This document shows positions 6,696-45,331 of a DNA stretch of 64,000 nt, piece by piece. Each line of letters opens with the position of its first letter. Position 1 is the stretch's first letter. The stretch is from Nakamurella sp. A5-74. Lineage in GTDB: Bacteria > Actinomycetota > Actinomycetes > Mycobacteriales > Nakamurellaceae. The translations under genes and the position numbers were made by a program. The DNA is taken from the NCBI RefSeq assembly GCF_040438885.1, contig NZ_CP159218.1:1860001-1924000 (forward strand), in the 5' to 3' direction. The notes below the pieces were generated by a model, which saw only the letters and a program-made list of their open reading frames with translations, was not told where the DNA came from and did no database searches.

Positions 6696-7325
6696 TCAGG
6701 CGCGGACCGCGTCGCCCACCAGGGTGACGCCGGCCGTCCGCATCCGCTCGATCGCGGCGTCGGTGTCGCCGTTCTCGAGTTCCACGAATCGGGTCAGCAC
6801 CAGCGGGACCGTCACCGAGTAGCCGAGCCGGACGCCGTCGACGGCGGTCGCCGCCACACACCAGTCGCCGGCCAGTCCGACGACCACGACGTCCATGATG
6901 CCGTTCTCGTCCAGCATCACCGACAGCTCGGTGCCCCTGGTCTGCTGGGTATCGAGATCGATCACTGAGAACGCCGAGTAGCCGTCCTCGGAGCCGGACC
7001 CCTTGCGCACCAGCGTTTCCGGATGATCGGTCGGTTCGGTGCCATCTGGGAGCAGGCCTCCTACCAGCTCGGCGCCCCGAGTGTCGTGGACGCAGTGCAC
7101 CGGCCAGATCCCGCCGTCCTGCTCGAAGTGTGGGGTGTGCTCGGGATGCCAGTCCTGGGTGAAGACGACGAGCGCGCCGGCCTCCTGGGCGGCGGCGATC
7201 TCCTGGGCGATCGGCGCTGCAAGTTCGGCACCGCCGCGGACGTACAGCGATCCGGACGGGTCGGCGAAATCGCGCTGCAGGTCGACGACGATCAGGGCGG
7301 TGGACGGCTGGTACTGATCGGTCAC
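6696..7325 (-). CDS. pncA: Nicotinamidase (isochorismatase-fold cysteine hydrolase)
   Basis: 209 aa. It deamidates nicotinamide to nicotinate for NAD salvage. The catalytic triad is visible: D15 (ALIVVDLQRDF), Lys in VRKGSGSEDGYSAF and Cys in GLAGDWCVAATA. Metal-binding histidines lie in QDWHPEHTPHF. It sits next to and co-directional with pncB, the following pathway step. The neighbour supports nicotinamidase over other isochorismatase-fold activities. Confidence 0.9.
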   Translation of the reverse strand: MTDQYQPSTALIVVDLQRDFADPSGSLYVRGGAELAAPIAQEIAAAQEAGALVVFTQDWHPEHTPHFEQDGGIWPVHCVHDTRGAELVGGLLPDGTEPTDHPETLVRKGSGSEDGYSAFSVIDLDTQQTRGTELSVMLDENGIMDVVVVGLAGDWCVAATAVDGVRLGYSVTVPLVLTRFVELENGDTDAAIERMRTAGVTLVGDAVRA

Positions 7326-7367
7326 CTCAAGGCCTTCCGGGTCGGTGGCGGGTACGCACGGCTGTCG

Positions 7368-8669
7368 TCAGCTCGACAGCAGCAGGGTCGTCGGGATGGC
7401 CGGCTCGCCGATCGAGAGCTTCAGGCCCTCCCACGGCAGGCTGACCCGACGGGCGAGCAGATCGGCGCGGGACGCGGCCAGCTCGGGCAGCCCCGGCACC
7501 CGTTCGCCGCCCCTGACCAGCGGAACGGGGAGCACGCGATCGTGGTCGCCCAGTTCCTGGGCGTCGACCGCGAGGTGGACGACCTCCTCGGTCGCGGTGC
7601 CGGTGGAGCGATGCCGTCGGAACGCCGACTTGCGCCCGCCGTGCGATGCCTTGTTCTCGCTGCGCTTCTCCACCGGGCGCCCGTCGACCTCGACCAGCTT
7701 GTAGACCATCCCGGCGGTGGGCGCACCGGAGCCGGTCACGAGGGACGTCCCCACCCCGTAGGTGTCCACCGGTTCGGCCCGGAGCGCCGCGATGGCGTAC
7801 TCGTCGAGATCCCCGGACAGCACGATCCTGGTCTGCGTTGCGCCGAGCGCATCGAGCTGGTCGCGGGCTGCGCGCGCCAGCACGCCGAGATCGCCGGAGT
7901 CGATGCGGACGGCGCCCAACGAGGTGCCGGCCACCTCGATGGCTGTCTCGATCCCGCGGGTGATGTCGTAGGTGTCGACCAACAACGTGGTGCCGACACC
8001 CAGCGCGGCCACCTGCGAGGCGAACGCCTGGGCCTCGGTGTCGTGCAGGAGGGTGAAGGCGTGCGCAGCCGTACCGCCGGTGGGGATGCCGTGTCGGCGG
8101 CCGGCTTCCAGGTTGGAGCTGGCGTGGAACCCGGCAAGGTAGGCAGCCCGGGCGGCAGCCACCGCCGATTCCTCGTGCGTACGACGGGATCCCATCTCGA
8201 TGAGCGTGCGGTCGCCTGCGGCGGAGGACATCCGGGCGGCCGCCGAGGCGATCGCGCTGTCGTGGTTGAGGATCGACAGGGCCAACGTCTCCAGGATCAC
8301 TGCGGACGCGAACGACCCGGTGACGCTGAGGATCGGACTGGCCGGGAAGTAGAACTCGCCCTCGGGGTAGCCGTCGATGTCGCCGTCGAAGGAGTAGTCG
8401 GCCAGGAACTGCACCGTCGCCTCGTCCAGGATCGGCACCAGTCGCTCGAGTTCGATGTCGTTGAACCGGAAGTGCTCGATCGCGTCGAGCAACCGTCCGG
8501 TGCCGGCGACGATCCCGTACCGGCGGCCCTGGGGGAGCCGCCGGGCGAACACCTCGAAGGTGCAGTGCCTCGTCGCGGTGCCGTCGGCGATCGCCGCCTG
8601 CAGCATCGTCAGCTCGTAGTGATCGGTGAACAACGCCGTCGAGCCGGAGGATCCCGGGAACTGAGTCAT
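7368..8669 (-). CDS. pncB: Nicotinate phosphoribosyltransferase
   Basis: 433 aa, full length. It converts nicotinate plus PRPP to nicotinate mononucleotide. The TDHYELTML start and GSRRTHEESAVAAARAAYL, GIPTGGTAAHAF and TYGVGTSLVTG segments are typical of bacterial NAPRTase. It is transcribed with pncA, 42 bp downstream. Location beside clpS repeats the mycobacterial pncB1-clpS order. Confidence 0.95.
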   Translation of the reverse strand: MTQFPGSSGSTALFTDHYELTMLQAAIADGTATRHCTFEVFARRLPQGRRYGIVAGTGRLLDAIEHFRFNDIELERLVPILDEATVQFLADYSFDGDIDGYPEGEFYFPASPILSVTGSFASAVILETLALSILNHDSAIASAAARMSSAAGDRTLIEMGSRRTHEESAVAAARAAYLAGFHASSNLEAGRRHGIPTGGTAAHAFTLLHDTEAQAFASQVAALGVGTTLLVDTYDITRGIETAIEVAGTSLGAVRIDSGDLGVLARAARDQLDALGATQTRIVLSGDLDEYAIAALRAEPVDTYGVGTSLVTGSGAPTAGMVYKLVEVDGRPVEKRSENKASHGGRKSAFRRHRSTGTATEEVVHLAVDAQELGDHDRVLPVPLVRGGERVPGLPELAASRADLLARRVSLPWEGLKLSIGEPAIPTTLLLSS

Positions 8670-8717
8670 CCGTTCACGATAGGGGGCCGCCAGATCAGGC
8701 CGAGGACTGCGGTCACT

Positions 8718-8985
8718 GACGACAGACTGGAATGCGCCGAGCCGGTCCAGGTCCCGCTGACGGCAACCGGTTCAGGCCACCTCTCAGCCGCATTCCAGAG
8801 TGTCGCCGAAACGCCCGAATCGGGCACCGGACGACAGACTGGAATGCGCCGAGCTGGATCGGGCCCCGCTGACGGCAACTGGTGCAGGCCACCCCCAGCC
8901 GCATTCCGGATTGTCGCCGAAACGCCCGAATCGGGCACCGGACGACAGACTGGAATGCGCCGAGCTGGATCGGGTCCCGCTGGCG
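8718..8985. repeat. 112-bp tandem repeat, about 2.4 copies, with internal inverted repeat
   Basis: Copies begin at 8718, 8830 and 8941 (period 111-112 bp), each opening with GACGACAGACTGGAATGCG. The third copy breaks off near 8985. Within a unit the opening is inversely repeated about 80 bp later (CGCATTCC-AG-GTGTCG), so each unit could fold or present opposed sites. It fills the 345-bp gap between the divergent pncB and clpS starts, where their promoters should lie. No gene is evident here; short ORFs in several frames are products of the repeat. Confidence 0.85.
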
Positions 8986-9014
8986 GCCACCCGAGCTCAT
9001 GAGAGACTGGACGG

Positions 9015-9302
9015 GTGTCCAGCGCGAGCCCGATCCTCGAGCGCGACCAGCAAGAGGCGGTCGACGCCGACCATCCCTGGGTCACGATCGTGTGGAACGA
9101 CCCGGTCAACCTGATGTCCTACGTGACCTTGGTCTTCATGCGCGACCTCGGTCATCCCCGAGCGGTCGCGGAGAAGCTGATGATGGACGTGCACACCGTC
9201 GGGCGTGCCTCCGTCTCCACCGGAACCCGCGAGAAGATGGAGACCACCGTGGCAACGCTGCAGGCCGCCGGCCTGTGGGCGACGATGCAACAGGACGTCT
9301 GA
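9015..9302 (+). CDS. clpS: ATP-dependent Clp protease adaptor ClpS
   Basis: 95 aa. It delivers N-degron substrates to ClpC/Clp[16 protein letters not shown] and the M-x-VHTVGRA segment with a trailing G-T-R-E-K-M-E are the ClpS core. The GTG start at 9015 gives the expected length. It starts a cluster with the DUF2017 gene 3 bp downstream, an order conserved in actinobacteria. Confidence 0.95.
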
Positions 9303-9305
9303 CGC

Positions 9306-9845
9306 GTGCACCGGTTCAGGAAGAGGTTCGGTCGCCTCACCGGCCAGCTGAGCTCGGTGGAGGCGTCGGTGCTCGGCGATCTCGTCGACCAGGTGCGCTC
9401 ACTGCTGGCCGAACGCCGCGCGGAGCACTCCGTCGATCCGCTGGCCGATCTGACCGGAATGGCCATGGGCACCGCAGAGGCACCCCAGGATGCCGCGGTC
9501 CGACGGCTGCTGCCCGATTTCCACGCCTCCGACGCCGAGCTGGCCGCGGGTCTCCGGCAGCTGCACGAGCCGGCGCTGATCGCCGCCAAGGACTCCGCGG
9601 CGGTGACGCTGCTGGATTCGCTCCCTCGCGGGGGCGGAACCGTTCGGCTGGACGAGCAACAGACGGTGGCCTGGATGACCGCGCTCAACGACGTGAGGCT
9701 GGCGATCGCCGAGCGGATCGGGCTGAACGACGACGAGGAACCCGCGGCGCTGGCTGACGGGGACGATGCGATCCACACGATGTGGAACACCTACCAGTGG
9801 CTCACCATGGTGCTCGACTCGCTGGTCGTCGCCTCGATGGAATGA
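9306..9845 (+). CDS. DUF2017 protein (AosR-like)
   Basis: 179 aa, helical and soluble. It has the conserved actinobacterial DUF2017 layout: an RLTGQLSSVEASVLGDLVDQ start and a C-terminal NDVRLAIAERIGL plus TMWNTYQWLTMVLDSLV. The mycobacterial member next to clpS (AosR) has been described as an oxidative-stress regulator of cysteine biosynthesis. That role is not shown here. GTG start 3 bp after clpS, so probably co-translated. Neighbouring mec-cysO-cysM genes found in mycobacteria are absent. Confidence 0.85.
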   Translation: MHRFRKRFGRLTGQLSSVEASVLGDLVDQVRSLLAERRAEHSVDPLADLTGMAMGTAEAPQDAAVRRLLPDFHASDAELAAGLRQLHEPALIAAKDSAAVTLLDSLPRGGGTVRLDEQQTVAWMTALNDVRLAIAERIGLNDDEEPAALADGDDAIHTMWNTYQWLTMVLDSLVVASME

Positions 9846-40416: not shown

Positions 40417-40493
40417 GGTGGGTGTAGCTCAGTTGGTAGAGCCCCGGCTTGTGGTGCCGGTGGTCGCGGGTTCAAGTCCCGTCATCCACCCCA
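40417..40493 (+). tRNA. tRNA-His (anticodon GUG), G-1 and CCA encoded
   Basis: Acceptor GTGGGTG pairs with CATCCAC, with the extra G-1 at 40417 opposite discriminator C. The anticodon loop contains GTG, the T-loop is TTCAAGT and CCA is encoded at 40491-40493. Its 3' 27 bp are duplicated at 44713-44739, marking it as the integration site of the element that follows. The gene remains intact. Confidence 0.96.
40467..40493 (+). repeat. Left attachment site (attL), tRNA-His 3' end
   Basis: 27-bp direct repeat covering the T-arm, acceptor 3' strand and CCA of tRNA-His. It is identical to 44713-44739; flanking bases differ on both sides. Confidence 0.9.
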
Positions 40494-40500
40494 CGTAGTG

Positions 40501-40579
40501 GCTGGTCAGAGGTTATGACCAGCGGAAGTGTTGTCAGGAACGGCGATTCTATTGATACAAGTCGCCTTCCTGACAACAC
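40501..40579. promoter_or_regulatory. Two inverted repeats between attL and integrase (probable recombination or regulatory sites)
   Basis: GCTGGTCA/TGACCAGC (40501-40523) and a long one, GTGTTGTCAGGAA-GGCGA with its complement (40528-40546 and 40562-40579, one bulge), around a 15-nt AT-rich loop. GGTCAGAG occurs at 40504, 40589 and 44684, i.e. near both ends, suggesting integrase or excisionase arm sites. The long hairpin could also be a terminator or the integrase operator. Confidence 0.6.
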
Positions 40580-40638
40580 ATACAGGCAGGTCAGAGGGTG
40601 ATCCCAGACCCTCGACAGTAGCCGGATCCGGGGTCGAA

Positions 40639-41832
40639 ATGCCATCCATCCGAGAGCGAATCCGCACGCGCGACGGGGTCGCCGTTTACGCGGTCCTGTG
40701 GCGCGAGGACGGCAAGCAGACCTCGATGGCGTTCCCCGGTGACAAACAGGCAGCGCTGAACTTCAAGCGGATGCTCGAGGCCAACGACGGCGACGCCGCG
40801 GTGGCCGGCGAGATGCTCCGCGCGATCGACAAGCGGTCGCCCGCCGTGAGCACCGTCGTCGAGAAGCACATCGCTACGCTGCCCTCGGTGTCGGCTCGAA
40901 CGAAGGCGGACTGCCGCCGCGACGCGTTGAATCACATCACCCCGTACCTCGGGCATGTGCCGGTCTCGGCAATCACGAAGGACCGCGTCGGGGAGTGGCT
41001 GGCGAAGCTGGCCAGCAAGCGCGGCCCGGCGCCCGACGAGCGCAACGAGGGGCCGCTGTTGCTGTCTGTCAAGACGATCGCCAACGTCCACGGGCTGCTG
41101 TCGTCGGCGATCGCCGCAGCCGTCGACCGCAGGCACCTGGCCGCGAACCCCTGCAAGGGCGTCCGTCTGCCGCGCCGCTCCGAGCACGAGTCGCAGGAGA
41201 TGGTGTTCCTGACCCCGACGGAGTGGCAGATCATCGACGGCGAGCTCGGCGTCGGGGTGTATTCGTTCTACCGACCGCTGTTCCGGACGCTGATCAACAC
41301 CGGTATGCGATGGGGTGAGGTTGGGGCGATGCGGCCGCGTGACCTGAACCTCCGGTCGGACGACCCGTCGATCTCGATCATGCGAGCGCTCAAGCGGGAC
41401 GAGAACAGCCGCTCGTACATCGGCCCGACGAAGACCCGCCGGTTCCGGCGGACCATCAGCATCCCCGTCGACCTGGCCGAGCAGCTGCGTGAGCTCACCG
41501 TAGGGAAGGGTGCAGAGGATCTGCTGTTCACCACGCGTACGGGTTCGATGCTGAACCCCTCGCACGAGCGGACCCGCGTGTGGCTGCCGGCCGTGCGCCG
41601 CGCCCAGGACGTCGAGAAGTACGGCGACCGCGCCGTGCAGGTGACCCCGCGGATCCACGACCTCCGGCACTCCCATGCGTCATGGCTCATCGCCGCCGGC
41701 GTCGACCTGCTCACCGTGCAGCGCCGCCTCGGACACGAGAGCATCACCACCACCGCCGACCGTTACAGCCACCTGTTGCCCGGCCAGCAGCGCGCAGCAT
41801 CCGCAGCGATCGCAGCTGCTCTCTCCGGCTGA
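40639..41832 (+). CDS. int: Tyrosine recombinase / phage-type integrase
   Basis: 397 aa. N-terminal arm-binding region (IRERIRTRDGVAVYAVLWRED), a SAM-like core-binding domain (VSTVVEKHIATLPSVSARTKADC), and the catalytic domain. Catalytic residues: Arg in TGMRWGEVG (~224), Lys in GPTKTRRFRR, His-x-x-Arg in HDLRHSHASW (~341), His in LGHESITTT and Tyr in ADRYSHLL (~375). ATG 40639 lies after the hairpins; an upstream in-frame ATG at 40528 would run through the inverted repeat. It integrates the element at tRNA-His. Confidence 0.95.
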   Translation: MPSIRERIRTRDGVAVYAVLWREDGKQTSMAFPGDKQAALNFKRMLEANDGDAAVAGEMLRAIDKRSPAVSTVVEKHIATLPSVSARTKADCRRDALNHITPYLGHVPVSAITKDRVGEWLAKLASKRGPAPDERNEGPLLLSVKTIANVHGLLSSAIAAAVDRRHLAANPCKGVRLPRRSEHESQEMVFLTPTEWQIIDGELGVGVYSFYRPLFRTLINTGMRWGEVGAMRPRDLNLRSDDPSISIMRALKRDENSRSYIGPTKTRRFRRTISIPVDLAEQLRELTVGKGAEDLLFTTRTGSMLNPSHERTRVWLPAVRRAQDVEKYGDRAVQVTPRIHDLRHSHASWLIAAGVDLLTVQRRLGHESITTTADRYSHLLPGQQRAASAAIAAALSG

Positions 41833-41918
41833 TGTCGCGCCGCGCACACCAGGCGTTCGGCCCTCATTACGACTACAGTCCGGCACCACACGCAACGTCC
41901 CACCAGGAGGATCTCCAC

Positions 41919-41960
41919 ATGACCGACCCGACGATCGTCACGACGCCGAGGCAGCGATGA
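41919..41960 (+). CDS. 13-codon ORF coupled to the next gene
   Basis: ATG 41919 is preceded by a strong CAGGAGG (41903-41909). It encodes 13 residues (MTDPTIVTTPRQR), and its TGA overlaps the ATG of the 172-aa gene (ATGA at 41957-41960). It may be a leader that feeds ribosomes to the downstream gene, which has no strong Shine-Dalgarno of its own. No similarity recognised. Confidence 0.45.
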   Translation: MTDPTIVTTPRQR

Positions 41961-42475
41961 GTGAGGAAGATCGCGGTGCGTCGATCGCGACAGTCGGCTT
42001 CGCGATCACGAAACGGTTGCAAGGCACGGAAACTCGGTGGTGGGGCAGGGGGTTCGATGTTCCTCCGTGGGTTGACAGTTTGCTCTCCAACGTCTCCGTA
42101 GCGATCGCCGACGTCGGCGATATCGAGTACGTGGTGAACGGTCTGGACGTCTACACGGCTCCGCTGTCAGGTTTCGTCGCCGTGTTCACCAACACAGGTC
42201 TGCTGGTTCATGCCGGTGTGAGCCAAGGGGACGGTCGGCATCCCGAGGTCGGCGTCCAGGTGGTGTCGAGATCTTCTCTCGATCGAGTGGACATCGATGG
42301 CGGTATGGACCTCATTGATACGGCTCCGGAAGCTGCTCGAGTGACCGTTCGACTGCACTACGCAGGTACCCCGAGCATCGTGACAATCCCGGGTCGCCCT
42401 GGCGTCACGTCATCAGAGCACAGAGCACTGGCCAACTTCATACCGAGCCTGATGGCAGATGTAGCGCGCACGTAG
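41957..42475 (+). CDS. Hypothetical protein of the integrative element
   Basis: 172 aa, soluble, mildly acidic, not recognised. It has mixed alpha/beta character (IADVGDIEYVVNGLDVYTAPLSGFVAVFTNTGLLVHAGV) and no membrane segment. The VSQGDGRHPEVGVQVVSRSSLDRV stretch resembles no motif I know. Translationally coupled to the 13-codon ORF, downstream of the integrase. Cargo or a regulator of the element are both possible. Confidence 0.7.
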   Translation: MSEEDRGASIATVGFAITKRLQGTETRWWGRGFDVPPWVDSLLSNVSVAIADVGDIEYVVNGLDVYTAPLSGFVAVFTNTGLLVHAGVSQGDGRHPEVGVQVVSRSSLDRVDIDGGMDLIDTAPEAARVTVRLHYAGTPSIVTIPGRPGVTSSEHRALANFIPSLMADVART

Positions 42476-42511
42476 CGAGGCATTGTCGTTGTGCTTACCT
42501 ATGGTGCGTGA

Positions 42512-42739
42512 ATGGAGAACCGCCCGCCGAAGTTCGGCCAGAACGACGGGGCCTATGCGACCACGCCACCCGGGCACACCGGTGTGTGCTGGGCGGCCGC
42601 GCTCGGTGAAGCCTCCCGCGGTCAACACACCCATGACCCAGCGGATGCCATAGCTCGGCGTGCACTGGCCATGCTCGCCGACGGCACCGCGGAGTGCATC
42701 TGCAGCCGACGAAGAACAGGACGACGCCGGAACCACTGA
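42512..42739 (+). CDS. Small hypothetical protein
   Basis: 75 aa, basic C-terminus (RRRTGRRRNH) and two close Cys (ECICSRR) near the end. It starts at ATG 42512, just after GTGCGTGA, without a strong ribosome site. No family recognised. The reading frame is plausible because it is uninterrupted and co-directional with neighbours. Confidence 0.4.
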   Translation: MENRPPKFGQNDGAYATTPPGHTGVCWAAALGEASRGQHTHDPADAIARRALAMLADGTAECICSRRRTGRRRNH

Positions 42740-42755
42740 CGGGGGTCCGAGCGCG

Positions 42756-42893
42756 GTGTTAGCGTGCCGCCATGACAGATTCGATCAGCTTGCCGGGTTG
42801 AAGAAGACCGGGCGGTTCGCTTTCGAGAACGATCTGGACGCCCTCCTCGACGAGCTCTCGGGCGAGCCATTCGAGGCCCCCGCAGTCACCTGA
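42756..42893 (+). CDS. Doubtful 46-aa ORF before the ImmA-like gene
   Basis: A GTG-initiated frame ending LKKTGRFAFENDLDALLDELSGEPFEA, with an acidic amphipathic helix. Phage-type cassettes usually carry a small repressor before ImmA, but no helix-turn-helix is visible here. The opposite strand has a 60-aa frame over the same bases; neither is well supported. Confidence 0.25.
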   Translation: MLACRHDRFDQLAGLKKTGRFAFENDLDALLDELSGEPFEAPAVT

Positions 42894-42939
42894 CCTGGCC
42901 TGACGTTCGGTGTCGGTGGCCGCTGGCAGGGTGCGGGAC

Positions 42940-43395
42940 ATGCATCACCCATGGGGGGACCTACGCCGACGACCGCACATCATCCTGACCTGGACACCAC
43001 TGCCGGAGCAGCTGGCCGCGGTGACCGACGGTCGAGAACAGATCTGGATGGACACCACACTCAGCCAGGTGGAGCGACGGTGCGCGATCTGCCACGAGCT
43101 TGCACACATCGACCTCGGCCACGAGTGCGGCGACGACCCAATGCTCGAGCTCGCCGCGGCCAAGCTCGCGTCCCGCCGGCTCATCCGGATCACGGATCTG
43201 GAGTCAGTTTTCCGATGGTCCCAGCAGCCAGCCGAGCAGGCTGACATTCTGTGGGTCACCGAGCCGGTGCTGCAGGTGCGTCTGGAGCACCTGCACCCAG
43301 CCGAGCGAGGGTTGCTGCGCCGCGCGGTGGAGCGCCACCGGGAGTCGGAGCAGCAGTGGGACCGGTATTTCAACGACGAGATGGGGATTGCATGA
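42940..43395 (+). CDS. ImmA/IrrE family metallo-endopeptidase
   Basis: 151 aa. The zinc motif HELAH within CAICHELAHIDLGH, followed by a downstream acidic helix (ELAAAKLASRRLI), matches the ImmA/IrrE (DUF955) peptidases that cleave phage or ICE repressors. In Bacillus ICEBs1, ImmA induces excision by cutting ImmR. ATG 42940 has GGCAGGG about 9 bp upstream; GTG 42910 is an alternative. Its stop overlaps the lipoprotein ATG. The matching repressor is not evident in the element. Confidence 0.85.
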   Translation: MHHPWGDLRRRPHIILTWTPLPEQLAAVTDGREQIWMDTTLSQVERRCAICHELAHIDLGHECGDDPMLELAAAKLASRRLIRITDLESVFRWSQQPAEQADILWVTEPVLQVRLEHLHPAERGLLRRAVERHRESEQQWDRYFNDEMGIA

Positions 43396-43931
43396 AGCAC
43401 GTCAGGAAGTCTCTGGTCGGAATGGTGGCCGCTGCCCTGGCCCTGGTTGGCTGCGGTGGCAGCACCGAACCCACGGCATCGCAGCCGACGGCAAGCGCGA
43501 CCGCTGCAGCCAGCAACTACCAGATCACGTGCAAGGTGGATGGCGCAGACGTGACAACGACCGACTACCACGAGATCTGGACCAAGGGAACATCTGACGA
43601 GTGCTCATCAGGTGATGGAAAGTCGTTCGACTACGAGGTCTCGGAACCCTTCACCGATGATCAGATTGCGGCAATTGCCTTGGCCCGCACCGGCCAGAGC
43701 GGCGCCAACGAATCCGGCGGAAGCATCCTGGGATACACCTATCCGAGCTGCGGCGAGACCAAAGCTGGGTCGCGATCTGACCCCGCGAAGGACTGGGCGA
43801 CAACTCCAGAAGCTACCTGGGCGCAACACGTCGTCGACCTGCAGGTGACGATGAAACTGTGCCCTGATCACCCGTGGGTGCAGCAATGGAAGTCGCAGAT
43901 CGCGAACCGCGCGGTGGTGACCTCGGGATGA
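43392..43931 (+). CDS. Lipoprotein of the integrative element
   Basis: 179 aa. Signal peptide KSLVGMVAAALALVGCGG with lipobox Cys at 21, a Ser/Thr/Ala spacer, then a ~140-residue soluble domain with five Cys (ITCKVDG, SDECSSG, YPSCGE, KLCPDHPW), probably disulfide-linked. Superinfection-exclusion lipoproteins are common on such elements, but that is only an analogy. Overlaps ImmA and DUF3263 genes by 4 nt each. Confidence 0.8.
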   Translation: MKHVRKSLVGMVAAALALVGCGGSTEPTASQPTASATAAASNYQITCKVDGADVTTTDYHEIWTKGTSDECSSGDGKSFDYEVSEPFTDDQIAAIALARTGQSGANESGGSILGYTYPSCGETKAGSRSDPAKDWATTPEATWAQHVVDLQVTMKLCPDHPWVQQWKSQIANRAVVTSG

Positions 43932-44173
43932 CTGCGCCCGTCGAGGTCCTGGAGTTCGAGTCTCGGGCGTGGGTGCACGCAGGGGCGAAGGAGCAGCCGA
44001 TCGCGGACGAGCTGGGTCTGTCGGCGACGCGGTACTACCAGCTGCTCCGTGAGGCGCTGCTGGACCCGACAGCGGTGGCGTCACACCCGGCCACAGCGGC
44101 CCGGATGCGGCGGATCTTGGAGCAGCAGCGTAGCCGGTTGACTGAGCGTTCGGCGGTGTCGCGCCGTGGGTGA
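43928..44173 (+). CDS. DUF3263 family protein
   Basis: 81 aa. EVLEFESRAWVHAGAKEQPIADELGLSATRYYQLLREALLDPTAVASHP matches the actinobacterial DUF3263 family: a helix-turn-helix-like stretch (IADELGLSATRYYQLL) suggests DNA binding. Common in actinobacterial chromosomes and actinophages. Candidate regulator or excision factor of the element. ATGA overlap with the lipoprotein. Confidence 0.85.
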   Translation: MTAPVEVLEFESRAWVHAGAKEQPIADELGLSATRYYQLLREALLDPTAVASHPATAARMRRILEQQRSRLTERSAVSRRG

Positions 44174-44363
44174 AACGGGTTTCTGGATTCGTGTCCAGCA
44201 GGTGAGTCAGCTGGCTGGGGCGCTCTGCGGCCTCGCGTTCATCATCTTCGTCGGTGACACCCTCGGGATTGTTCTGGGTTCACTCCTCTTCGTGGTCAAC
44301 GTCGTCGGGCTGGTCGCGACCACGCGCCGTGCTGCAGCCACTCGAGCTGGTGAAAGCTCATGA
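44166..44363 (+). CDS. Small membrane protein
   Basis: 65 aa with two membrane helices (LAGALCGLAFIIFVGDTLGI and VLGSLLFVVNVVGLVA) and a short basic tail. GTG 44166 overlaps the DUF3263 stop. Not recognised. Confidence 0.6.
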   Translation: MGETGFWIRVQQVSQLAGALCGLAFIIFVGDTLGIVLGSLLFVVNVVGLVATTRRAAATRAGESS

Positions 44364-44581
44364 ACCGTGCGCCGTGGTGGCGTCGGCCGATTCCACTGCC
44401 GCGGTGGGCGTACATATTGCTGGCCTCGGCGAGCGCGGCCATGGTTGCTGTGTCGCCCGCCCTGTTCCCGGGGACGGGCGGCTGGGTCATTGCCGGGGTG
44501 TTCATGGTGCTCGTCATCGCGTCGATCGCTGGGATGGCCAACGACGCCCACGGTGAGCGGCAGCGCCGGAACCGGTTCTGA
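44360..44581 (+). CDS. Small membrane protein
   Basis: 73 aa with a basic N-terminus (MNRAPWWRRPIPLPRW), two helices (AYILLASASAAMVAVSPALF and WVIAGVFMVLVIASIAGM) and a charged tail. ATGA overlap with the previous gene, so part of the same coupled string. Last gene of the element; 44582-44712 before attR holds no gene. Confidence 0.6.
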   Translation: MNRAPWWRRPIPLPRWAYILLASASAAMVAVSPALFPGTGGWVIAGVFMVLVIASIAGMANDAHGERQRRNRF

Positions 44582-44712
44582 GGCCCGAGATGGGCGCGAG
44601 GGTCTGTTGATACTGTCAACAAGAACCCAGATCGAGCACGTTCGGAGACGTTCGAATCCGAGTGATCACGGACAATAACGCCTGGTCAGAGACCTAGACG
44701 CGCTCACTTGTA

Positions 44713-44739
44713 CGGGTTCAAGTCCCGTCATCCACCCCA
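44713..44739 (+). repeat. Right attachment site (attR)
   Basis: Perfect copy of the tRNA-His 3' 27 bp at the right end of the element. The upstream part of a tRNA is missing, so this is an att duplicate and not a gene. Confidence 0.9.
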
Positions 44740-44745
44740 GAAGGA

Positions 44746-44774
44746 GAGCCCCGACGCTGCGTGCGTCGGGGCTC
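44746..44774 (+). terminator. Intrinsic terminator, originally of tRNA-His
   Basis: Perfect 12-bp stem GAGCCCCGACGC/GCGTCGGGGCTC with a 5-nt loop, then TTCTCGTTCTG. It lies 6 bp past attR, where the tRNA-His terminator would have been before integration. Confidence 0.9.
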
Positions 44775-44789
44775 TTCTCGTTCTGGTCC

Positions 44790-45143
44790 TCAGCAGCCGA
44801 TGTTCTGACCCGGCAGGTGGGTTCGCGCCGTCACCGGCGCAGCGTCGGCGACCCGCTCGCGCCCGAGACGAAGCCGCTCGAGCTGCGCCTCCAGCTGTCC
44901 GAGTCGAAGGTGGGCATCCCGGATCTGGAGTTCGAGGAACTCACGGGACGGTCCCGCTGGACGTGTCGGGGCAGCGCCCGTCTCCCATTCTGAGCCGGCT
45001 GCCAACGCGTCGCTGACCCATCGGTGAACAGTGGAGACGCCAACGCTCATGTCGCGGGCGACCAGGGTGGCGGGCCGGTGATGGGTGAGTATCAGCTCGG
45101 TTGCTTGAGCGCGCTGCGAGGCCGAGTACTTGCGATTCGCCAT
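44790..45143 (-). CDS. Helix-turn-helix protein resembling IS3-type transposase OrfA
   Basis: 117 aa. RKYSASQRAQATELILTHHRPATLVARDMSVGVSTVHRWVSDAL is a homeodomain-like helix-turn-helix as in IS3/IS911 OrfA proteins, and LQIRDAHLRLGQLEAQLERLRLGRERV is a coiled coil that could dimerise. No OrfB or terminal inverted repeats are seen nearby, so it is either a solitary DNA-binding protein or an IS relic. Start at 45143 (MANRKYSA) preferred. Outside the integrative element. Confidence 0.65.
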   Translation of the reverse strand: MANRKYSASQRAQATELILTHHRPATLVARDMSVGVSTVHRWVSDALAAGSEWETGAAPTRPAGPSREFLELQIRDAHLRLGQLEAQLERLRLGRERVADAAPVTARTHLPGQNIGC

Positions 45144-45331
45144 GACGATGCTTGTGATGGGCCGGATCATGAATGATGCGGCTGCTGTCCCCGTGGGAAG
45201 AAAGTACCTGATACGTCACTTGACCGGCTGCACGCAACGCCGGGAAACATCGGAGGAATCGGTCCGGGCGGTGCGACGGGCTGCTCCGGACTCACCGCGA
45301 CCGCTCGGCGCGGGTTGACTACGCTGCAGGC

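Follow-up and report, generated by a model that had tools for sequence, protein, structure and literature searches.

A compact 4.2-kb insertion at the tRNA-His gene of Nakamurella sp. A5-74: an apparent prophage pared to its dormancy genes

Introduction

What kind of genetic element occupies only 4.2 kb behind a transfer RNA (tRNA) gene, carries its own integrase and shows no family for transfer, replication or packaging? This question is raised by a block of DNA lying directly downstream of the tRNA-His gene of Nakamurella sp. A5-74. The DNA analysed here, referred to as the window, is the whole 64,000-nucleotide stretch from 1,860,001 to 1,924,000 of the single 4,748,569-bp contig of this strain (NZ_CP159218.1; genome handle G000), and positions are counted from its first letter. 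A preliminary description, made from the letters alone, had proposed a minimal integrative element that could be either a satellite using helper functions or an island for defence or superinfection exclusion. We propose that the element is a cryptic prophage stub, cut down to the two prophage ends that are expressed in lysogeny, and put the probability of this reading at about 0.62; that it originated from a phage lysogeny module is very probable. The element belongs to a known kind and is unusually compact, cryptic prophages being reported as prevalent in actinobacteria in the accessible part of PMC10023795. Judged by titles, and with subscription papers mostly outside reach, no paper among those listed could be recognised as an account of this element or of an operon of ImmA, lipoprotein and DUF3263 genes; the one paper listed for DUF3263 concerns a cyanophage. 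The locus offers a tidy example of an apparent prophage pared to its dormancy genes and yields a handful of candidates for phage exclusion in an actinobacterium, namely one lipoprotein and two small membrane proteins.

Results and discussion

The 4.2-kb block is a clean insertion at tRNA-His

The block is a real, clean insertion. The perfect 27-bp direct repeats of the preliminary description were confirmed: identical at 27/27 positions, they bracket a 4,219-bp insert, and the left copy forms the end of a tRNA-His gene that is complete according to ARAGORN (Table 1). Counting one attachment site (att) copy, the element proper spans 40494-44739. Its G+C content is 65.1%, that of the window 68.5%. 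When the tRNA-His end pattern was searched with at most one mismatch, G000 gave two matches among those listed, both at this site; across the 17 genomes of the genus (comparison genomes were taken one per species), and again among the matches listed, two matches were seen only in G000, one in 13 genomes and none in three. A full-length match of the 4.2-kb block to its own genome was found once.

Both ends are accompanied by hairpins. The hairpin just inside attL, which together with a smaller one before it folds at -46.3 kcal/mol, is a probable replacement terminator for tRNA-His brought by the insert, and the strong hairpin just past attR is probably the displaced native terminator; a scan saw no T run after the hairpins at attL. 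Scored with one mismatch allowed, a stem 12 or more positions long stood directly after tRNA-His at 9 of 15 congener loci; among 600 random 60-base stretches drawn from these loci, 23 had one. The contig of the sixteenth congener, G009, stops within the tRNA, and this genome was left out. The stretch after attR thus resembles a native tRNA-His terminator, which places the 4.2 kb between the tRNA and its terminator. No stem passing the strict count followed tRNA-His in G012, G010, G002, G003 and G011, and the count missed a bulged hairpin of -25.5 kcal/mol in G007. Since gene order downstream of tRNA-His is not conserved in the genus, no exact empty junction exists and the terminator-like hairpin serves as a proxy only. 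Each of the 15 loci held one tRNA-His and no integrase match nearby, the sole hit (L048) lying about 7 kb off.

That the block is an inserted element, as proposed earlier, is supported by its repeats, by a terminator-like hairpin that seems displaced and, among the matches listed, by there being no second copy of the site in any of the 16 congeners. An ancestral chromosomal block would be expected in relatives without att repeats, and no sign of one was seen: orfB was unmatched at an expect value (E) of 0.001, with up to eight candidates scored per genome, in the 396 other genomes of the order (it found only itself in 397), and phage records gave no match to it either. As a separate observation, a 126-aa frame on the minus strand directly outside attR (44790-45170) has a transposase-type helix-turn-helix (HTH) match (HTH_Tnp_1, 23.8 bits; cut-off 24.1).

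Table 1 Features of the element and its borders (window positions), followed by the tRNA-His islets of another family of the order (f16; genome coordinates)
Feature	Position	Strand	Basis
tRNA-His, GTG anticodon, intact; its 3' 27 nt are attL	40418..40493	+	ARAGORN, repeat comparison
attL, 27-bp direct repeat	40467..40493	+	repeat comparison
Hairpin just inside attL, 13-bp perfect inverted repeat, about 20 pairs and one bulge when folded	40528..40579	.	
Tyrosine integrase, 397 aa	40639..41832	+	PF00589 3.3e-17; phrog_1 8.6e-59; tree
orfB, 172 aa, orphan	41957..42475	+	no Pfam, PHROGs, NCBIfam or PADLOC family
orfC, 75 aa, DUF6197-like	42512..42739	+	E 0.032, under cut-off
ImmA/IrrE-like metalloprotease, 151 aa	42940..43395	+	phrog_87 6.1e-15
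Lipoprotein, 179 aa	43392..43931	+	LVGC lipobox and signal segment
DUF3263 protein, 81 aa; HTH DNA-binding in phage annotation	43928..44173	+	PF11662 1.3e-19
Small membrane protein, 65 aa, two predicted transmembrane segments	44166..44363	+	hydropathy only
Small membrane protein, 73 aa, two predicted transmembrane segments	44360..44581	+	hydropathy only
attR, 27-bp direct repeat	44713..44739	+	repeat comparison
16-bp hairpin two bases past attR, outside the element	44742..44778	.	
f16 islets, loci L161, L163, L165	G157:C12:53430-61581, G287:C1:3617350-3625005, G169:C1:3717-9032		
f16 islets, loci L164, L168-L169	G347:C10:52319-54237, G092:C8:39898-63140		
f16 islets, repeats with mismatches	G351:C14:406021-412319, G319:C32:3389-14481		

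Gene content of the element

The genes listed in the preliminary description, namely a left-end integrase, an immA-like gene, a lipoprotein, a DUF3263 protein and small membrane proteins in overlapping order, were all recovered by family, hydropathy and lipobox scans; orfB, orfC and the two hairpins were missing from that inventory. Successive overlaps of 4, 4, 8 and 4 bp join the run ImmA - lipoprotein - DUF3263 - two membrane genes. For ImmA, the Pfam M78 score was only 18.8 bits, below the 22-bit cut-off, and a HELAH motif was seen by eye. The DUF3263 protein reached 55.4 bits with the model NF053843 for the nucleoid-associated protein NapA (cut-off 160), and a second DUF3263 gene on the chromosome (G000:C1:4024250-4024468, minus strand) scored 129 bits against 69 for that of the element.

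None of the element proteins matched a relaxase, replication, packaging, structural or repressor family in Pfam, PHROGs and NCBIfam scans, in agreement with the earlier statement that relaxase, replicase and structural genes are lacking. Pfam gave no XRE/HTH_3 repressor family either, only HTH_10 at E 0.087 on the DUF3263 protein. The sole match to a recombination-directionality family (phrog_478, E 0.052) covers residues 1-59 of the lipoprotein and was taken as signal sequence. A promoter scan returned no sigma-70-like promoter. We also observed a 13-codon frame on the plus strand (41919-41960). It has an AGGAGG site, overlaps the start of orfB at an ATGA, and could encode a leader peptide or be what is left of a lost gene.

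For the lipoprotein, other genomes gave 11 weak matches, partial for the most part; eight were refetched, of which two stayed under E 0.01 and none matched the integrase, ImmA or DUF3263 queries. Relatives of orfC were found in another element of G000 (L061:877-1089, 62% identical) and in G015 (39%), and none in the phage records. In viral contigs no relative of the lipoprotein, ImmA or orfB was confirmed by scans sensitive to close relatives only, and wider genome contigs yielded three remote integrase matches, 26-27% identical.

The integrase, ImmA and DUF3263 genes match a phage lysogeny cassette

In a tree of 20 integrases, that of the window falls in a six-member clade (support 100/100) with those of Gordonia phage Lton, G082 (near tRNA-Ala), G045 (tRNA-His), and G009 and G002 (both tRNA-Leu); it does not group with those from the satellite-like elements at tRNA-Ser and tRNA-Val in G000. 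ImmA and DUF3263 adjoin the integrase in Lton, G045 and G082. The integrases of phage GMA4 and of the Mycobacterium abscessus prophage prophiGD43A-1 fall elsewhere in the tree. Relatives of ImmA were found in 281 phage records at E 0.01 and in 30 of the 397 genomes of the order (G000 included), and relatives of DUF3263 in 99 phage records at E 0.01.

Phage Lton encodes, as genes 34-37, an integrase, a DUF3263 protein (PF11662 6.3e-25), an IrrE-like protein and a repressor, so that its cassette runs repressor, IrrE-like, DUF3263, integrase. Of 24 phages taken at even steps down the ImmA ranking we read 12, and a regulator preceded ImmA in every one (named immunity repressor in nine). DUF3263 followed ImmA in ten, nine by Pfam and CheeseTouch by eye; it was not seen in Donkeykong or in Spooky, though the Spooky protein is a true ImmA relative. 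An integrase lay downstream in all 12, in the same direction in two. In GMA4 and prophiGD43A-1, which were found via DUF3263, an ImmA relative precedes DUF3263, and in GMA4 the ImmA, DUF3263 and integrase genes all point the same way, as they do in the circular map of the element. Judged from sequence, the combination of integrase, ImmA and DUF3263 is that of the lysogeny cassette in temperate phages of actinobacteria. Like the cassettes of Lton, GMA4 and prophiGD43A-1, the element has an integrase and an ImmA relative with DUF3263 directly downstream; unlike them, it lacks a repressor, carries the lipoprotein between ImmA and DUF3263 and membrane genes after DUF3263, and holds nothing of the rest of a phage.

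A prophage at the same target was found in G045, from another family of the order, where 37.6 kb lie between two copies of the tRNA-His end. Its left end carries the integrase, DUF3263 and ImmA genes, and its interior encodes proteins that look, by eye, primase-, terminase- and capsid-like. It shares with the element the tRNA, an integrase close behind it (starting 95 bp past the tRNA) and the adjacent DUF3263 and ImmA; it differs in being full-length and in having ImmA and DUF3263 convergent with the integrase.

A probable cryptic prophage stub

These comparisons suggest the following course of events. A temperate actinobacteriophage related to Lton and the G045 prophage would have integrated at the 3' end of tRNA-His by means of its tyrosine integrase, restoring the tRNA and moving the native terminator to the far end; the repeats and hairpins observed are what such an event would leave. 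In the circular map derived from the sequence, ImmA is followed by the lipoprotein, DUF3263, the two membrane genes, attP and the integrase, in this order; integration at attP would make the integrase the leftmost gene and place the ImmA operon rightmost. Everything in between, including replication and structural genes and the repressor, would then have been deleted, so that the ends which remain are of a kind expressed by phages during lysogeny. The operon running from ImmA through the lipoprotein and DUF3263 to the membrane genes was probably retained for a benefit to the host. The phage-lineage genes are the integrase, which shares a clade with that of Lton, and ImmA and DUF3263, which occur in phage records. 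No structural, packaging or replication gene, whole or broken, was recognised in the family scans of the element, so calling it a prophage remnant is a statement about origin drawn from the lysogeny module.

Several observations weigh against this history. None of the genes in the element is visibly broken, and no repressor, terminase or capsid remnant was recognised in it. The 12 phages read included 10 in which integrase and ImmA operon converge, and no intact phage with the order of the element, that is with attP between DUF3263 and an outward-pointing integrase, was found. No phage relative of the lipoprotein or of either membrane protein was found. The stretches read around the integrases of G009 and G002, the nearest by path in the tree, gave no ImmA or DUF3263 match. 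Likewise, DUF3263 was not seen in 23 of 32 ImmA loci read in bacterial genomes, several of which run to a contig end. Lastly, only 4 of 24 cargo genes from the phage cassettes had a predicted transmembrane segment, and none had a lipobox behind a signal segment, which argues against envelope proteins as a rule in such cargo. The cargo genes came from 8 of the 12 phages, prophiGD43A-1 and GMA4, with very short and opposite-strand genes omitted.

Two more specific proposals were considered. A 77-aa frame ahead of ImmA (42660-42893) might be a broken repressor; its best phage match had E 5. Simple inward deletion of a G045-type prophage is disfavoured because ImmA and DUF3263 there are convergent with the integrase, so that an ancestor with attP between DUF3263 and the integrase is needed, of which none was found whole.

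Varied cargo around ImmA and DUF3263

Extra genes separated the regulator from ImmA in 7 of the 12 phages and ImmA from DUF3263 in one (Ohgeesy). In Donkeykong, a protein with an N-terminal membrane segment is encoded right after ImmA, and in the Gordonia phage LitninMcQueen (L184:1092-2445) a HicA/HicB-like pair stands between the regulator and the IrrE-like gene. The ImmA/DUF3263 stretch of Gordonia and Mycobacterium phages, with its varied cargo of a HicAB-like pair, membrane proteins and many unknowns, is thereby a place to seek new defence genes.

The 32 bacterial loci covered 33 of the 34 ImmA places other than that of the window (G325 was left out). Where DUF3263 was present (9 of 32) it was always downstream on the same strand. 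Gene content was inspected in eight of these loci. Four transmembrane segments are encoded between ImmA and DUF3263 in L143; membrane proteins in or next to the ImmA operon have one such segment in L142 and three in L125, and a protein with two follows ImmA in L124. In L122, a prophage-like region of the same genus (G005), ImmA and a DUF3263 protein 61% identical to that of the window are followed by a lipoprotein-like gene. Its product has a signal segment, and its near-lipobox falls short of the strict pattern; homology to the window lipoprotein is not detectable. A further locus, L151 (G016:C4, 202001-222000), comprises 16 kb between tRNA-Tyr repeats. It contains an integrase gene, to which inspection by eye added a tape-measure-like gene, an endolysin-like gene and two adjacent protease genes of the ImmA/SprT kind.

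Possible function of the operon

Our leading, though tentative, candidate for the function of the operon is exclusion or abortion of an incoming phage at the envelope. From its position, the lipoprotein could plausibly act in superinfection exclusion, which is our best guess, by analogy with ltp of streptococcal phages. In Streptococcus thermophilus phage TP-J34, according to the accessible part of PMC3952083, the gene order is repressor - metalloproteinase - ltp - int, and Ltp is a membrane-tethered lipoprotein that blocks DNA injection. The element resembles this arrangement in having a lipoprotein gene in a lysogeny module beside a metalloproteinase gene, toward the integrase; it differs in the phylum of its host and in that its lipoprotein, of putative function only, bears no sequence relation in PHROGs or NCBIfam scans. 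Specifically, these scans placed no Ltp-type family on it (no direct alignment with Ltp was made), the match to phrog_1119, the Cor exclusion protein, had E 0.081 over residues 6-52, which is the signal region, and no relative of known function was found. Elsewhere, a non-inducible prophage carrying ltp and immA is reported to give phage immunity (PMC6356513, accessible part). Prophage Sbash, with its defence genes 30/31, offers a second parallel: its repressor and integrase genes lie next to attL together with an IrrE-like gene; the proteins are different and the prophage is whole (PMC6426596, accessible part).

It is also conceivable, if less likely than not, that the operon does something other than exclude phages: it could be inert, or it could serve lysogeny only, ImmA and DUF3263 acting as regulators and the lipoprotein gene being some other host-fitness gene. 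In keeping with this, PADLOC gave two weak matches, neither convincing (E 0.0011 for ImmA and 0.018 for the last membrane protein), phage cargo in this region is mostly not membrane-bound, and structure models built without an alignment were uninformative for the lipoprotein and orfB (mean pLDDT, the predicted local distance difference test, 38.8 and 34.3). The open, tightly overlapping frames are unexpected for long inert decay.

Alternative origins

An improbable alternative to the cryptic prophage stub is a minimal exclusion cassette, in which the lysogeny module moves alone by its own integrase, hitch-hiking in phage particles or entering by uptake, with the operon as cargo. Clean ends with a perfect repeat, open overlapping genes, the element's own hairpins after attL and three other att-flanked compact elements in the same genome would all fit such a unit, as would the position of the lipoprotein, which is like that of Ltp in the accessible description of TP-J34. 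Against it stand the lack of an excisionase, replication or packaging family, the phrog_478 match falling on the lipoprotein signal region only, the lack of an orfB match in the 396 other genomes of the order, and an integrase whose best other full-length match among 60 relatives is 44% identical. Less probable again is a bolder form, in which a lysogeny module turned independent, non-replicating exclusion element is moved in trans by phages using tRNA-His, its repressor-less ImmA being able to act on the repressor of a phage that arrives or already resides in the cell. If the cryptic prophage stub still excises, it would itself be a very small mobile unit.

The preliminary description had also raised a satellite using a helper. 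Such an element, resembling the phage-inducible chromosomal islands (PICIs) and with replication genes lost or never present, would depend on a helper prophage whose repressor the orphan ImmA would cleave. Small size, flanking att sites, a tRNA target and an ImmA without its own repressor are in keeping with this, and orfC is common to a satellite-like element of the same genome. PICIs and other satellites are recognised by a primase or replication initiator, a small terminase or a capsid interference gene. Scanned with Pfam and PHROGs, the element has no replication, packaging or interference gene of this marker set: neither a primase nor a small terminase nor a capsid-interference family was hit. 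The satellite-like elements of 8 to 11 kb elsewhere in the same genome, whose genes were read by eye, differ in this; the integrase of the element lies outside the clade of theirs, and G000 has no ImmA match besides that of the element. Although actinobacterial elements below 15 kb are suspected satellites in the accessible part of PMC10023795, we rejected this reading as very unlikely, for want of a hallmark gene and on the integrase tree.

Actinomycete integrative and conjugative elements (AICEs), other integrative and conjugative elements (ICEs) and integrative and mobilizable elements (IMEs) are marked by a relaxase or FtsK-like Tra and by Rep. A remnant of such an element, with which the tRNA site and tyrosine integrase would be shared, was dismissed as highly improbable, since Pfam and PHROGs gave no relaxase, FtsK-like Tra or Rep family and the tree places the integrase with the one from phage Lton.

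Other elements in the genome and in the order

Three larger elements were noted in G000. L067 (G000:C1:843568-851596) comprises 8.0 kb between 23-bp tRNA-Ser repeats with an integrase, and is satellite-like, with XRE regulators and excisionase-like and helicase/primase-like genes seen by eye. L060 and L061 (G000:C1:3004261-3015404 and 3016579-3026412) lie in two tRNA-Val genes, with 11.1 and 9.8 kb between 25-bp repeats and, by eye, primase- and small-terminase-like genes. L061 holds the orfC relative and a lipoprotein gene, and partially repeats itself about 9.8 kb further on, as if by tandem insertion. In the genus, L066 (G002:C1, 3024000-3042000) has at 6800-9350 an integrase of the window clade beside tRNA-Leu, with an excisionase-like gene and a lipoprotein-like frame, recognised by eye, ahead of ordinary pilus genes; no second att copy was found within the 18 kb read.

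In family f16, stretches of 1.9-23 kb lie between tRNA-His end repeats among the matches listed (Table 1). The repeats are 22-32 exact bp in the first five islets (G157, G287, G169, G347 and G092), and those of G157, G287, G169, G351 and G319 hold ordinary-looking cargo genes by eye. No PF00589 integrase was found inside the islets, the matches lying elsewhere in those genomes (serine recombinases were not searched for). They look like integrase-free islets mobilised in trans at a tRNA-His hot spot.

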